From a virus, in IMG/VR virus record IMGVR_UViG_3300030107_006806, positions 1 through 25,540 of that record: a stretch of 25,540 nt of DNA; one strand, 5' to 3'. Positions 6,972-20,575 of this stretch are shown piece after piece; within the stretch, counting starts at the first letter, position 1, and each line of letters begins with the position of its first letter. A program made the position numbers and the translations under genes. The notes under the pieces were generated by a model. That model was not told the origin of the DNA and did no database searches. It was given only the letters and a program-made list of their open reading frames with translations.

Positions 6972-8239
6972 TGCAAAGAAAAAATTTTCAAACAGGAACA
7001 TCATCCGTAATACAACGATCCGCACCTTATTTAGAACAAGCTGGGGAAACGTTTTTAAAAGACATCGTTACTCCTTTAACAGGACAACGAGTTAAAACAG
7101 AAACGTTTGCACCTAGTGTTGCAGCGTATGATCCCTTTACTCAACAAGCTCAACAAATGGCTGCTTCACAAGCAGGTTTGGGAGCAATTTCTTTTGATCC
7201 AACAACAGGAGCACCAACTTCAATTGGAGCAGGAACAGGAGTTTCAGGTTATCAACCTTATCTAGATCAAGCAGGAACGTATGGTACTCAAGCAGGAACC
7301 ACTTTAGGTGGTGTAGGTGCCGATATTACTTCTGCGAGAGGCGCAATGGGTACAGCAGGAACAACTCTTGCTACAGGATTAGGAACTTTAGGAACAGCAG
7401 GCACGGAGCTCGGAGCCGCAGGAACAACTTTAGGAGGAGTTCCTTCTTACTTAACTTCTGCAGCAGGCTACTCAGGACCTTCTGCTTATTCACAATTTAT
7501 GTCTCCGTACCAATCCGATGTCATTGGTGCAACATTAACAGAATTCGATAAACAAGCCGCAGCAAGACAACAAGCTATTTCCGATAAAGCCGTTCAAGTA
7601 GGTGGTTTTGGTGGAGGTAGAGAAGGTGTTCAGCTTGCTGAATACCAAACACAATCTGACCGAGATAGAGCCTTACTTCAGGCACAATTACTCTCTCAAG
7701 GCTATACACAAGCTCAAGCACTCGCTAATCAAGCCTACGGCCAACAATTAGGCTTAGGAGCAGCACAGCAAGGGTTGGGTACTGCACAAGCAGGAATCGC
7801 TCAACAGAGAGGCTCTCTAGGGCAATTACAGGGTGGTTTAGGTGGAATGCAAGGACAATTAGGTGCTCAATACTTAGGAGCAGCAGGACAACAACAAGGA
7901 TTAGGAACCGCGCAACAGGGACTAGGTGGATACTATGCTGGATTAGCAGGTCTTCAACCAACTCTTGCAGGTGGAAATATTCAAGGCTTAGGCGCAGCAG
8001 GAACACAAGCTTTAGCTTACCAACAAGCAATCAAGGACGCACAAGCACAGGCAGCACAGACGTATGCTTACGAACCTTACCAAAGAGCAGGGTTCCTTGG
8101 TTCAGCAATCACAGGTCTGCTTGCAGGTCAACAAGCTCCTTATCAACCAACAACTCCACAAGCATCGGCAAGTCCATTGTCACAAGCGTTATCGACTGGA
8201 TTAGCAGCTTATGGAATAGGAAGTATGTTCGGGAGATAA
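6971..8239 (+). CDS. Putative internal virion protein with glycine heptad arrays, 422 residues
   Basis: A Gly/Ala/Gln-rich protein with two repeat arrays. One spans residues 101-157 (AGTTLGG, LGTLGTAG types). The other spans about 262-343, in nearly perfect 7-residue steps (QGLGTAQ, GSLGQLQ, GGLGGMQ). Between them lies the most diagnostic part: MSPYQSDVIGATLTEF (177-192) and VGGFGGGREGV (210-220). I recall this combination from internal or ejection-type proteins of many podovirus-like phages. The heptads predict long helices with glycine faces able to pack tightly or enter membranes. The start overlaps the previous stop as TAATG. No enzyme motif is visible. A role in the ejected conduit or core is likely but unproven. 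Confidence 0.65.
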   Translation: MQRKNFQTGTSSVIQRSAPYLEQAGETFLKDIVTPLTGQRVKTETFAPSVAAYDPFTQQAQQMAASQAGLGAISFDPTTGAPTSIGAGTGVSGYQPYLDQAGTYGTQAGTTLGGVGADITSARGAMGTAGTTLATGLGTLGTAGTELGAAGTTLGGVPSYLTSAAGYSGPSAYSQFMSPYQSDVIGATLTEFDKQAAARQQAISDKAVQVGGFGGGREGVQLAEYQTQSDRDRALLQAQLLSQGYTQAQALANQAYGQQLGLGAAQQGLGTAQAGIAQQRGSLGQLQGGLGGMQGQLGAQYLGAAGQQQGLGTAQQGLGGYYAGLAGLQPTLAGGNIQGLGAAGTQALAYQQAIKDAQAQAAQTYAYEPYQRAGFLGSAITGLLAGQQAPYQPTTPQASASPLSQALSTGLAAYGIGSMFGR

Positions 8240-8242
8240 ATT

Positions 8243-9616
8243 ATGAAATATAATGTATTTAAAAGACCGATGTTTAAAAGAGGTGGCATATCTAGAGGAA
8301 CAGGGATCACGTCTGGACTAGATACCCCTAGAATAGGTTTTAGTAATGGTATGGGGTTTGGATTTATGTCAGCAGGACAACAGTTTCCAATAGATTATTT
8401 AAAATATGGACCAGGTGGAAAACCTCCTATGCTTACAAAAAATGCAAGTAGCCCAATAAAAAAAGCTACAAAAGCAGTAGCAGGATCTACCTCTAACTAC
8501 GACGATGGTTTATTAGATTACTGGCCATATAAAGAAGGGGATAAATTTGGAAACTACGATTTTTGGCCAACGGTTCCTCCAGGAACTCGATTAGATGAAG
8601 AAGGTAAAATTATACCAAAAAGAGAAGAACTTCCACCACCTACTATTATACCTGGTGTACCAGGTGGAGGAGATCAAGATATGTTTGCTCCTAAAAAATC
8701 TATAGAAGATGATACTCCTGCAGAGCTAACAGAAGAAAAAGCTACAAAATCCGAAGAAGATCTTTTGTTAGAAAAATTAGGAGACACATCTTTAAGTAAA
8801 GGTGAAAAAGCACTTATGCTTTCTGAAATCATTGGCACAGCAGGAGGCATGGAAGGAAAAACTAAAAAAGCGATTGAATTGATGAAGGCTAAATCTAGAG
8901 AAGATAGACAGCTTAAAAAAGATATTACTAAACTAAAATACCTACAAAAAGGTAAAGAGAGAATTGCTGGAATAGAAGCAGGAGAACTAACAACTTCACA
9001 AAAAGATATTAATGCTAAAGTTGAAAATACAAAGAGAATAGCCAGACAAAAAGGATTGGTTACAGAAAAAGGTGGAGTAACCTACTACGATGGTAAAACT
9101 GAAGCAGAGATAAAAAATGATATTTATGATAAATTATTACAAGATAAAAATGTTAGTCTTGCTGATAAAGTAAGAGCTAAATTTGCTCAACAAATAGTGG
9201 ATCTTCGTGATGAAATAAGGAAGAAAAAAGCAAAAGCAAAACCTGGTGATGAAAACGCACAAGCTAAAATAAGAGCATTAGAAGAGCAATTAGAAGATAT
9301 GATGAATCCTGGAAAATACGGAATAGCAGAAGGTGGAAGAGTGGGATATGCTCAAGGTACACCTATGGCTGAACCTCAGATAGCAGCAACACAAACAGAA
9401 GGTGCAAATACTACTGAAAATACAAGACCTGTTAATAAACTATCTTTTGCTGAATTAAGAAACAGATTACCTAAAGAAATAACAGACGATGTAGTTCAAC
9501 TTCTTGCTAATAGTGAAGAAGCTCTACAAGATTTTGCTTATATCCAAACACAAGAGGACATTAATAAATTTAACATTAAATACGGTGTAAATGTAATATT
9601 GCCACCGCAAGCATAG
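8243..9616 (+). CDS. Putative internal virion protein, 457 residues
   Basis: A modular protein of unknown function. The N-terminal part is Gly-rich and probably unstructured, with FKRPMFKRGGISRGTGITSG, then TPRIGFSNGMGFGF, phrases I know from marine phage virion proteins. A Pro-rich linker (residues 115-150) precedes a long, highly charged helical region (about 170-360) with coiled-coil character (LRDEIRKKKAKAK, IRALEEQLEDMM). Next comes the tag AEGGRVGYAQGTP, near-identical to a tag in the 693-residue protein. The last 55 residues look like a small folded helical domain. GGGAG, 7 bases before ATG, supports the start. The neighbours suggest packaging in the virion. The next gene's ribosome site overlaps this stop codon. 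Confidence 0.6.
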   Translation: MKYNVFKRPMFKRGGISRGTGITSGLDTPRIGFSNGMGFGFMSAGQQFPIDYLKYGPGGKPPMLTKNASSPIKKATKAVAGSTSNYDDGLLDYWPYKEGDKFGNYDFWPTVPPGTRLDEEGKIIPKREELPPPTIIPGVPGGGDQDMFAPKKSIEDDTPAELTEEKATKSEEDLLLEKLGDTSLSKGEKALMLSEIIGTAGGMEGKTKKAIELMKAKSREDRQLKKDITKLKYLQKGKERIAGIEAGELTTSQKDINAKVENTKRIARQKGLVTEKGGVTYYDGKTEAEIKNDIYDKLLQDKNVSLADKVRAKFAQQIVDLRDEIRKKKAKAKPGDENAQAKIRALEEQLEDMMNPGKYGIAEGGRVGYAQGTPMAEPQIAATQTEGANTTENTRPVNKLSFAELRNRLPKEITDDVVQLLANSEEALQDFAYIQTQEDINKFNIKYGVNVILPPQA

Positions 9617-15003: not shown

Positions 15004-15447
15004 ATGACAAATAGAGCATTATCCATATTTAATCAGTTAAGACCCGTATCGGTAGGTTTCGATAGCATCTTCGATCATTTCGAAAGAATGTTTGATAACG
15101 AAAACCCACCACAGTTTAACTATCCACCTTATAATATTGTTAAGACTGGAACGTACACATACGACATCGAAGTGGCGTTAGCAGGTTACAATAAAAAGGA
15201 GATAGCTGTAACATTCGCAGAGGGTGTATTAACTATCAGGTCATCTAGAAAACAAGAGACGAGCGATAAAGACAAAAAAGATGGAGTAATCCATAAAGGA
15301 ATCGCTAAAAGACTTTTCTCAAGATCTTTCACAATCGCCAACGATGTTGAAATCGAAGGTGCAGAACTGAAAGACGGTTTGTTGAAAGTATCGTTACTTA
15401 AGATTGTTCCTGAAGGCAGAAAAGCCAAAGAAATAAAAATCAAGTAA
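15004..15447 (+). CDS. Small heat shock protein (Hsp20 / IbpA-type chaperone)
   Basis: A 147-residue alpha-crystallin-domain protein. The domain starts at PPYNIVKTG (residues 41-49), runs through YDIEVALAGYNKKEI and GVLTI, and has the IbpA-type HKGIAKRLFSRSF (97-109). It closes with DGLLKVSL (124-131). The C-terminal IKI (144-146) is the I-x-I motif used to dock neighbouring dimers. Such proteins bind unfolding proteins without ATP and form oligomers. Phage Hsp20 genes are known from marine cyanophages and pelagiphages. Here the gene stands alone between a candidate promoter and a strong terminator, after the structural and lysis-like genes, suggesting late expression and help with virion protein folding. 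Its codons are more C-rich than those of its neighbours, perhaps for high expression. Confidence 0.93.
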   Translation: MTNRALSIFNQLRPVSVGFDSIFDHFERMFDNENPPQFNYPPYNIVKTGTYTYDIEVALAGYNKKEIAVTFAEGVLTIRSSRKQETSDKDKKDGVIHKGIAKRLFSRSFTIANDVEIEGAELKDGLLKVSLLKIVPEGRKAKEIKIK

Positions 15448-15452
15448 TAAGA

Positions 15453-15475
15453 AGGGGGCGAAAGCCCCCTTTTTT
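15453..15475 (+). terminator. Intrinsic terminator after Hsp20
   Basis: A perfect 7-bp stem (AGGGGGC pairing with GCCCCCT), a GAAA tetraloop and a run of six T (15470-15475). It ends the plus-strand late region. The stop codon of the minus-strand gene lies at 15474-15476, so minus-strand transcripts also read this stem, followed there by TTCTTATT; it may work weakly in both directions. Confidence 0.93.
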
Positions 15476-18171: not shown

Positions 18172-18936
18172 ATGAAACAAGAAATAGAAACCAAGAAGAG
18201 TAATCTTCCTCAGATGAGTGTATTTGAGGATGATGCAGGGAAAGGATTGGGTAAACTAACTCAAGAAGATTTAGCTTTACCTTTTCTTAAAATCTTAGGA
18301 CAATTATCTCCTGAGGTTAACAAAAGAGACGGGAAGTATGTTCAAGGTGCAGAACCTGGAATGATATACAATACTGTTTCTGGAGAACTCCATAATGGAG
18401 AGAAAGGTATTCAAGTTTTACCATGCTTCTACAAATTAGAATATGTAGAGTGGCAAAACATTGGAGAAGGCTCTGGTGCTCCAGTGAATATCTATCCATC
18501 ATCAAGTGATATCCTTAGTAAAACAACTAGAGGAGCTGATTTTAAAGATAGATTACCAAACGGTAATTATATTGAAAAAACAGCAAGTCACTTTGTGATC
18601 GTATTGGGAGATTCGCCTACAACGGCGTTGATCAATATGAAATCAACTCAACTTAAAACAAGTCGAAAATGGAATTCGATGATGGCAGGAGTTAAACTTA
18701 AAGGCAAGAATGGTCTTTTTACTCCGTCATCTTTTAGCCATGTTTATCGTTTAAGAACTGTTCAACAGTCAAATGATAAAGGAACATGGTTCGGTTGGGA
18801 AGTTAGCAAAGTTAGTCAAGTGGAAGATACTCCACTTTACGAACAAGCAAGAACTTTTGCTGAAAGTATCAGCAAGGGGGCTATTGTAGCTAAACATAAT
18901 TCAGAAAATAAAACTTCTGAATCAACCCACTTCTAA
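18172..18936 (+). CDS. Conserved replication-region protein, possible single-stranded-DNA-binding role
   Basis: A 254-residue protein starting six bases after the previous gene with AAGGAAATAAG upstream. Residues 30-150 contain conserved-looking blocks (LALPFLKILGQLSPEV, GAEPGMIYNTVSGEL, GIQVLPCFYKLEYVEW), followed by strand-rich TASHFVIVLGD, TALINMKSTQLKTSRKWN and VYRLRTVQQ. The last 20 residues are polar, probably disordered, and end in THF. A beta-rich core with a flexible tail ending in an aromatic residue, just before primase, is what a phage single-strand-binding protein would look like. However, the tail is not strongly acidic and I recognise no OB-fold signature, so this is position-based inference. 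Confidence 0.5.
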   Translation: MKQEIETKKSNLPQMSVFEDDAGKGLGKLTQEDLALPFLKILGQLSPEVNKRDGKYVQGAEPGMIYNTVSGELHNGEKGIQVLPCFYKLEYVEWQNIGEGSGAPVNIYPSSSDILSKTTRGADFKDRLPNGNYIEKTASHFVIVLGDSPTTALINMKSTQLKTSRKWNSMMAGVKLKGKNGLFTPSSFSHVYRLRTVQQSNDKGTWFGWEVSKVSQVEDTPLYEQARTFAESISKGAIVAKHNSENKTSESTHF

Positions 18937-18941
18937 AATTC

Positions 18942-18955
18942 TTTTACGGACGTAA
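18942..18955 (+). promoter_or_regulatory. Small hairpin after the SSB-like gene
   Basis: TTTAC and GTAAA pair around GGAC, only a few bases after the TAA of the upstream gene. There is no T-run, so it is not an intrinsic terminator; it is the first of three hairpin-forming segments in a 73-base gap. Confidence 0.45.
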
Positions 18956-18960
18956 AGATA

Positions 18961-18999
18961 CTAGGCGGTAGCGGGAGACTTAAACCGCCTAGGTTTAAG
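18961..18999 (+). promoter_or_regulatory. Two mutually exclusive hairpins before the primase gene
   Basis: Hairpin A: CTAGGCGGT (18961-18969) pairs perfectly with ACCGCCTAG (18984-18992) around a 14-base loop. Hairpin B: CTTAAACC (18979-18986) pairs perfectly with GGTTTAAG (18992-18999) around GCCTA. They share bases 18984-18992, so only one can form at a time. The A loop carries GGGAG (18973-18977), the only good ribosome site for the ATG at 19010, which lies 32 bases away unless hairpin B closes the gap to 11. This suggests a translational switch or hairpin-assisted start; an origin or DNA-level protein site is an alternative. Confidence 0.6.
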
Positions 19000-19009
19000 A
19001 AAATGAAAA

Positions 19010-20575
19010 ATGATAGAAGATTTTATAAAAATATTTAGTGGATTTGATTTGGACTTCGGCAAAGCCGATATGTCCAACATCGAGGTCGACACAGAAAGAA
19101 ATAAAGTTAAACCTAGATACGAATGGGCGGGAAGAAACATCAATACTCAAGACTACCAATTACATTTAAACGGCAAAATATCCATCGGCATACAACCTTG
19201 TAGAATAGACCGAAAAGCATCCTTTGGTTGTATAGACATTGATCCAAAAAATTATAGTGAATTTAAAATTGAAACTTATTTAGCTTACTTTCAACAATAT
19301 GGACTTCCTCTAATTCCTTGTTTATCTAAAAGTGGAGGTTTGCATTGTTATATTTTTTTAAAAGAACCTGTTCCAGCTTCTGATTTAAGAGAAGCTCTAC
19401 AATCTTTCTTATTACCTTTAAAATTAGATCCAAAAACTGAAGTCTTTCCAAAACAATCTAAACTTGAAAAAATTGGAGATCAATATTCTCCAGGTAATTT
19501 TATTAATCTTCCTTATTTTAATTGTAAAAAAACTAGTCGTTATGCTGTTGATAAAAATAATCATAAATTAAGTTTAGAACAATTTATTGAATTAGTTAAA
19601 AATTCTAGAATAGATGGCAAAGCTTTAGATAGCTTAGTTGAAGAATCAAGAAGAAAAATACTATTAGGAGCAGATCCAGAATTTAATGATGGACCTCCTT
19701 GTTTAGGTTGTTTATCAAAAACAAAATTAGATGATGGTAGAGATAGATTTTTATATAACTACATGGTCTTTGCTAAAAAGAAATATAAAGAAGAATGGGA
19801 AGATAAGGTTATGGAAGCAAATACTAAATATTTTGAACAACCTTTCAGCAACGAAAAATTACAAAAAAAATTAAAAGCTTGGAGAAAAGAAACAGCAAGT
19901 CATACTTGTCATGAAAATCCAATAGCTCCTGTTTGTCAAAGAACATTATGTGCAAGTAGGACATTTGGTATTAGATCCGATTCAAATGTTGCATTCCCAA
20001 TGATAAGTGACTTTGAAATTATTTTAGGAAATCCACGTAGGTATCACTTTAATATCGAAGCACAAGACGGAAAATTAAAACCTGCTGTGGTTAGAGATAA
20101 AAATATATTTTGTAAGCAGGAACAGTTTGCAGCGTTATGTTGGGAAGTTGCTGGTTTTTATCCTGAACGTCTTAAATTTAATGATTTTATTGCTAAAATA
20201 AATGGAATGAGGGCTTCTGCAATGGAGGTTAAACCTGCAGCAGGAACTTCTGATGTAGATAAATTGTATAATCATTTATATGAATTTTGTGTCAATAGTT
20301 CTCAAGCAAAACAAAAAATACAAATTAGAAGTGGATCTTGCTACACAGATAAAGGATTTCATTTTTTTAAATTTCAATCTTTTTATGATTCATTAGGTAA
20401 TCGTTGGAAATTTTCTGAAGAAGAAACTGCTTATATAATGAAAAAAGAATTTGGAGCAATATTTAATCACTCTTTTAATATTGATGGTAAGACAGAAAAA
20501 GTTATTAAAATAAAACAACTACATGTAGATCAAATAGAATATAATCCAATTAAACGCGAGGAAGATAACTTCTAA
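19010..20575 (+). CDS. Archaeo-eukaryotic-type DNA primase (AEP, TOTE-like domain)
   Basis: A 521-residue primase. The catalytic acidic pair is D76-x-D78 (FGCIDIDPKNY). The nucleotide-binding SGGLH is at 108-112. EVFPKQ (144-149) and GNFINLPYF (162-170) complete the AEP signature as I know it in the domain Pfam calls AEP-TOTE. A second module follows: PPCLGCL (229-235), a helical stretch (DDGRDRFLYNYMVFAKKKY), then C300, C309 and C314 in a HENPIAPVCQRTLCASRTFG context, which fits a zinc or iron-sulfur site together with C231. The last 170 residues are unassigned. There is no helicase domain; a UvrD-like helicase follows directly (TAATG overlap). The role is primer synthesis. The start is discussed with the upstream hairpins. 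Confidence 0.8.
   Translation: MIEDFIKIFSGFDLDFGKADMSNIEVDTERNKVKPRYEWAGRNINTQDYQLHLNGKISIGIQPCRIDRKASFGCIDIDPKNYSEFKIETYLAYFQQYGLPLIPCLSKSGGLHCYIFLKEPVPASDLREALQSFLLPLKLDPKTEVFPKQSKLEKIGDQYSPGNFINLPYFNCKKTSRYAVDKNNHKLSLEQFIELVKNSRIDGKALDSLVEESRRKILLGADPEFNDGPPCLGCLSKTKLDDGRDRFLYNYMVFAKKKYKEEWEDKVMEANTKYFEQPFSNEKLQKKLKAWRKETASHTCHENPIAPVCQRTLCASRTFGIRSDSNVAFPMISDFEIILGNPRRYHFNIEAQDGKLKPAVVRDKNIFCKQEQFAALCWEVAGFYPERLKFNDFIAKINGMRASAMEVKPAAGTSDVDKLYNHLYEFCVNSSQAKQKIQIRSGSCYTDKGFHFFKFQSFYDSLGNRWKFSEEETAYIMKKEFGAIFNHSFNIDGKTEKVIKIKQLHVDQIEYNPIKREEDNF

Follow-up and report, generated by a model that had tools for sequence, protein, structure and literature searches.

What do two overlapping hairpins in front of a phage primase gene do, and for whom? 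The window that we analysed, a viral stretch of 25,540 nt, holds an intergenic gap of 73 bases that contains both hairpins. Upstream lies a gene of the Pam3_Gp34/phrog_2402 family, to which no predicted function is assigned (18172-18936, + strand; Pfam PF23977, E=8e-66; phrog_2402, E=1e-65), and downstream a gene for an archaeo-eukaryotic-type (AEP) primase (19010-20575, + strand; phrog_21866, E=3e-96; PF22548 AEP-TOTE, E=2e-14); an earlier ATG at 19003 opens a short frame only. Judged from the relatives of the locus, the host is probably a member of SAR11. No other bacterial group in the ocean is as abundant, and SAR11 phages rank high among viruses in abundance, yet hardly anything has been learned of how RNA exerts control in SAR11 or in its phages.

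Two mutually exclusive hairpins in the window

Hairpin A, or P2 (18961-18992, + strand), pairs CTAGGCGGT (18961-18969) with ACCGCCTAG (18984-18992) in nine perfect pairs and gives a CM match with E=4e-8, a value that rests, like all CM E-values given here, on a short calibration. Above the stem follow a 3x3 internal loop, with AGC on its 5′ side (18970-18972, + strand) facing UAA (18981-18983), and the apical core GGGAGACU (18973-18980, + strand), which is made of a G-U pair, a G-C pair and a GAGA loop of the GNRA type. Hairpin B joins CTTAAACC (18979-18986) to GGTTTAAG (18992-18999) in eight perfect pairs around the loop GCCTA. Because all nine bases of the 3′ arm of A lie within B, four of them in its paired arms, the two hairpins are mutually exclusive, as the initial annotation had stated. 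Its arithmetic was also correct in that GGGAG (18973-18977) precedes the ATG at 19010 by 32 bases and would precede it by 11 with B looped out. The small hairpin that it had placed upstream at 18942-18955 exists, but occupies 18943-18956 (+ strand), one base further on. This accessory hairpin, P1, directly follows the stop codon of the upstream gene and is a weak five-pair stem in the window (folding z = -0.8).

Hairpin A exceeds chance: no other stem in the 25.5-kb window reaches 9 perfect pairs with six or more G-C pairs among them, and none of this kind arose in any of 12 dinucleotide shuffles. The 111-nt leader has a folding z of -2.8 and, when folded alone, adopts hairpin A with pair probabilities of 0.95-1.0, the probability of stem B being 0.0. 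The free energies are -17.3 kcal/mol for A and -9.3 kcal/mol for B, which is thus weaker by 8 kcal/mol and forms in the folded leader only when the 5′ arm of A is taken away. A pseudoknot between the loop CUUAA and a downstream UUAAG, in which A and part of B would coexist, was judged by eye and dropped because its connecting loop of 2 nt would have to span a 9-bp stem. Scans of the window leader found no sigma-70 promoter on the + strand and no T-run or intrinsic terminator. An ordinary intrinsic terminator, GGGGGCGAAAGCCCCC followed by T6, lies elsewhere in the window at 15449-15475, 3′ of an Hsp20 gene (15004-15447); in phage HTVC008M a gene similar to Hsp20 is likewise followed by a GC hairpin and a short T tract (near 92418).

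Conservation and covariation among primase relatives

For comparison we used 80 IMG/VR loci encoding the primase at 54-99% identity, and because these were gathered by the primase alone, the conservation of the hairpin core among them is unbiased; the later scans demanded the core GGGAGACU or GCGAGAGU. Hairpin A stands upstream of the start codon in 79 of the 80, and likewise before the AEP primase start codon of the cultured SAR11 phage HTVC027P, where it occupies 1828-1863 of MN698241. Across 44 distinct rows, changes on both sides were found in 10 of 11 pairs, including all nine stem pairs, and the covariation score of 0.563 (0.207 in shuffles) was reached by none of 500 shuffles and was lost when partners were slid. 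The G-U pair (G15-U22) is kept in 43 of the 44 rows and GAGA is invariant, while the inner loop pair is G-C in 23 rows and C-G in 21, so that GG-GAGA-CU is swapped for GC-GAGA-GU. The element is thus a variable 9-bp stem, a 3x3 internal loop whose size is constant in nearly all relatives and which is mostly purine-rich, two pairs (G-U and G-C) and the GAGA loop. Loop bases that stay fixed while the stem sequence changes freely are characteristic of an RNA hairpin that is recognised. P1 accompanies it in the AEP leaders with its structure kept and its sequence variable (mean folding z = -2.95 in 40 distinct leaders).

The annotation's expectation of a functional RNA structure in the primase leader is therefore borne out, with the compensatory changes that it had proposed to look for present in stem A. 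Stem B has none and is limited to the closest clade of the window: its 8 bp shrink to 7 in two loci (L005 and L008), where the lost pair is uncompensated, and to 2 in L009, whose primase is 96% identical. Among 55 distinct leaders, 49 have a stem B of 3 bp or less, and two of the other six (L010 and L058) pair through an unrelated GGGATC repeat. A two-state switch, in which A and B would set primase translation by bringing GGGAG near the ATG, draws on the perfection and mutual exclusion of both stems in the window and on the formation of B without the 5′ arm of A. We give it almost no chance, as B is neither conserved nor covarying, is absent from distant relatives and does not form in the free leader, and as GGGAG is not retained as a ribosome site, about half of the distinct leaders having GCGAGAG instead (21 of 44 rows). 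The analogy drawn with T4 genes, in which a hairpin brings the ribosome site near the start, falls too, since the distance from hairpin to start ranges from 6 to 183 nt, a poor fit to a hairpin that positions a ribosome site.

The conservation also indicates in which molecule the element acts. G-U pairs outnumber A-C in all three stem sets (18:3, 27:9 and 19:2), from which it follows that the + strand folds, and this excess together with the constant position of phage copies on the coding strand argues that the element works as RNA.

Several smaller features accompany these leaders. In the clade of 54-57% identity (L010-L084) a conserved GGGATC, which is not a standard Shine-Dalgarno sequence, lies 2-3 nt before the primase ATG; as a pairing partner of the hairpin it was rejected, having no consistent complement in this large clade and being absent from the window clade. 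Six loci (L028, L030, L045, L048, L065 and L073) have an insert of ~20 nt between hairpin and primase start, seemingly a third hairpin just before GGGATC. A different hairpin, with the motif absent, occupies the same junction in 023Pt_psg01 (L086, ~1786-1807) and DSL-LC04 (L087, ~2952-2971).

One hairpin in unrelated phages and in SAR11 chromosomes

A pattern scan of IMG/VR with another stem sequence returned 120 contigs, in 118 of which an AEP primase adjoins the hairpin. One of the remaining two ends before the primase; the other, the T4-like phage contig L165, encodes gp32 and has its hairpin directly after a TTGACA-17-TATATT promoter and before thyX. Two further scans placed the hairpin before AEP primases only 25-29% identical to that of the window, so that the AEP primases with an upstream hairpin now reach down to 25% identity (25-57% in this set); they also placed it between a capsid gene and a gene for tail tubular A, and ahead of T7-like primases that share no sequence similarity with AEP primases. 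In an alignment across these contexts GAGA and the G-U pair are kept in 32 of 32 rows, the last A of the internal loop (18983 in the window) is invariant, and covariation is again present.

Searching the whole records of cultured phages, we obtained one confident match per positive phage: before the AEP primase in HTVC027P, upstream of the T7-like primase in HTVC019P, 022P, 201P, 021P, 105P and 304P, with the 022P copy at 8212-8247 of MH598798, at the junction of capsid and tail tubular A genes in HTVC031P, before endonuclease V in the T4-like HTVC008M, and at 19246-19281 in HTVC168P. Weaker matches were found in HTVC309P and HTVC134P and a marginal one, with the first model only, in HTVC011P (E 0.77); the same searches gave no match in HTVC010P, HTVC023P, HTVC119P, 023Pt_psg01 and DSL-LC04. 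Because the hairpin is missing from some SAR11 phages (HTVC010P, HTVC023P and HTVC119P), infection of SAR11 does not require it. A search of five T7-like phages that infect Roseobacter relatives found no copy. Phage copies always lie at gene junctions on the coding strand, and the presence of the element before a tail gene, thyX and endonuclease V and in host chromosomes speaks against the primase-specific control that had been suggested. One contig binned as Marinimicrobia (L225) has a phage primase with the hairpin and is probably a phage contig in the bin.

Among the genomes searched, the bacterial copies are confined to SAR11. A fixed-stem pattern scan of 84,980 species genomes had 48 matches, 27 of them in contigs titled Pelagibacteraceae; the 20 matches that were neither SAR11 nor phage are near chance expectation (estimated at roughly 15) and were set aside. 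With the phage-derived model, 162 of 297 Pelagibacteraceae genomes match (E down to 2e-9), 161 of them with one copy, and a further sample of relatives yields matches in 40 of 121 genomes; both proportions are lower bounds because many of the genomes are incomplete assemblies, and the SAR11 label of the genome set follows its centre genome (G004, locus L224), which is titled Pelagibacteraceae. Among 385 alphaproteobacterial genomes drawn from the class there was no real match outside SAR11, and two weak CM matches (L322 and L323) were rejected, the GAGA core being absent.

The stem covaries in the host set as well, and P1 is not part of the host copy. Upstream, a GANTC-N3-TA block is present in 75 of 76 distinct host copies, with GANTC almost always GAATC (in L260-L319, GAATC lies ~31-34 nt upstream of the GGGAGAC core, with a single GACTC, in L310). 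The invariant TA three bases after GANTC fits a -10 box, a TTNAA-like -35 region lies 18 bases before it, and the hairpin starts 7-8 nt after this promoter-like block. Most copies are followed by a T-rich tail (mostly 4-9 T in the next 10 nt). The predicted start at the hairpin and this tail together predict a hairpin RNA of ~40 nt, which SAR11 cells would transcribe from its own promoter. A strict promoter-plus-hairpin pattern, which was too narrow, had 0 matches in three SAR11 genomes. Genes near the host copies that we read include pgm, TauE, HIT and an NlpC/P60-like gene, and because these neighbours vary, the host hairpin is a separate locus. No tRNA was found near the host copies scanned, and a tRNA-linked att site was dropped as an account of this locus. 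In Caulobacter, GcrA is a regulator that acts at methylated GANTC promoters. GcrA is present in six of six SAR11 genomes, and the motif suggests a GcrA/CcrM-type promoter at the host locus, possibly under GcrA control. One subgroup (L309, L276, L299 and others) has a DnaA-box-like TTATCCACA 30-50 nt upstream of GANTC.

This distribution also bears on the annotation's alternative of a DNA site, for which a replication origin, a primosome site or a hairpin in single-stranded DNA, one per replicon, would be the candidates. A single copy per genome, often beside a primase gene, and the DnaA-box-like sequence upstream of some host copies would suit it, but the element also stands at capsid/tail, thyX and endonuclease V junctions, the host copy is spaced as from a promoter and followed by a T tail, and phage copies keep to the coding strand. 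We regard a DNA site as very unlikely. A riboswitch was rejected on the grounds that there is no metabolic-gene regulon and one copy per genome.

An element without a specific partner, serving as an ordinary intercistronic stabiliser or attenuator of mRNA with its GNRA loop kept for stability, would explain why phage copies always sit on the coding strand at gene junctions and why the host copy resembles an intrinsic terminator. Generic hairpins would alternate between GNRA and UNCG loops, however, whereas this one retains GAGA, the G-U pair and the 3x3 loop in the host and in unrelated phages alike and ends at the boundary of SAR11 hosts. The AEP phage copies also have no T-run, with 0-4 T in the next 10 nt, and an intrinsic terminator was rejected for the phage copies on this ground. 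Such a partnerless role appears improbable to us.

A candidate SAR11 partner of the hairpin

We propose, with a probability of roughly 0.48, that hairpin A is a phage copy of a SAR11 RNA hairpin element, placed at a gene junction and bound there by a predicted SAR11 factor. SAR11 cells would make the element as a tiny hairpin RNA from its own promoter, and a putative RNA-binding factor would recognise the loop end of this RNA. Phages would carry this binding site once, placed where two genes meet or where a transcript begins (in the window, between the Pam3_Gp34-like gene and that for the primase), and the factor, bound to phage mRNA, would set processing, stability or translation at that junction. 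A protein-dependent tuning of the primase, as the initial annotation had also considered, is possible. The restriction to SAR11 hosts and their phages, with T7-like phages differing in this respect from those of Roseobacter relatives, argues for a SAR11 partner, and the occurrence of the hairpin once per host genome and in several phages that are unrelated to one another suggests that a putative, as yet undescribed RNA-binding factor of the host has been exploited repeatedly. More tentatively, and with some doubt, we suggest a whole SAR11 lineage-specific system, consisting of a ~40-nt hairpin RNA, a GANTC promoter and a putative protein partner, which unrelated phages (T7-like, T4-like and AEP-primase podoviruses, each with one copy in its own transcripts) would mimic to capture the partner. 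If true, this would be an RNA mimic common to phages of the ocean's most abundant bacteria.

An effect on the primase in cis is less certain than binding, because the single copy lies at different junctions in related phages and because a complete tRNA-Cys gene (8946-9019, minus strand) separates hairpin and primase in HTVC019P (L327). A role in trans agrees as well as one in cis with a single copy per genome at differing junctions, and the main rival is accordingly a decoy: the phage hairpin, within an abundant mRNA or freed from it, would titrate or replace the host tiny RNA, and the neighbouring gene would hardly matter. The single copy in phage and host genomes, the differing junctions of related phages (before the primase in HTVC019P, between capsid and tail genes in HTVC031P) and the intervening tRNA gene would all be expected of it. 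A pure decoy has no need, however, of the pre-primase position that recurs in unrelated phages with non-homologous primases, and on balance we consider it unlikely, though well worth keeping in mind. For HTVC022P, of the same group as HTVC019P, integration at tRNA-Cys has been reported (PMC12753301), and the tRNA-Cys region of HTVC019P is therefore probably an attachment region. Repeats in HTVC019P were uninformative as a source of a phage-promoter motif.

Hairpin A offers a defined bait in a search for such a factor, 32 nt with invariant loop bases, and may help to assign uncultured phages to SAR11. In Rfam 15 no family matched the window at 18700-19200 with E<=5, and neither the gathering nor relaxed thresholds gave a match over the hairpin of host or phage loci. 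The translational operators of T4 gp43 and RegA and the MS2-type operator hairpins are short hairpins with conserved loops upstream of phage replication genes, which the present element resembles; it differs from them in that it lies at varying distances from the start codon, that it also precedes non-replication genes and that the same hairpin forms a host locus. T7 has an RNase III site, R3.8, before gene 4 and the terminator T-phi after gene 10, two junctions (ahead of the primase gene and behind the capsid gene) at which copies described here also lie. Hairpin A, at ~14 pair-equivalents with a conserved loop sequence, is shorter than RNase III substrates, and, unlike the T7 sites, lacks a T-run in phage copies and occurs in phages unrelated to T7.

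In 'Ca. Pelagibacter ubique', Meyer 2009 described the rhtB-associated element, a bulged hairpin restricted to SAR11 with a conserved loop and, in about half of the cases, a U tract (PMC2704228). It lies upstream of rhtB (LysE) in a largely conserved context and was not reported in phages (PMC2704228). The restriction to SAR11, the conserved loop and the T-rich tail of most host copies are shared with our element, whereas the host copies read here adjoin pgm, TauE, HIT and NlpC/P60-like genes and not LysE; in this comparison, by description and not by sequence, the rhtB element could be a related account of a SAR11 hairpin.

The nearest phage RNA in layout, although not in its defining features, is the antitermination RNA put of HK022, in which two adjacent stem-loops form a ~70-nt fold with an RNA triplex that acts directly on RNAP at the zinc-binding domain of beta′, putL lying just downstream of a promoter for the host RNAP (PMC9378689). 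The AEP leaders likewise present two adjacent stem-loops, P1 and P2, in a phage leader RNA. Here, by contrast, only P2 is universal, P1 being missing from the host copy, and the hairpin is carried by T7-like SAR11 phages that have an RNAP of their own.
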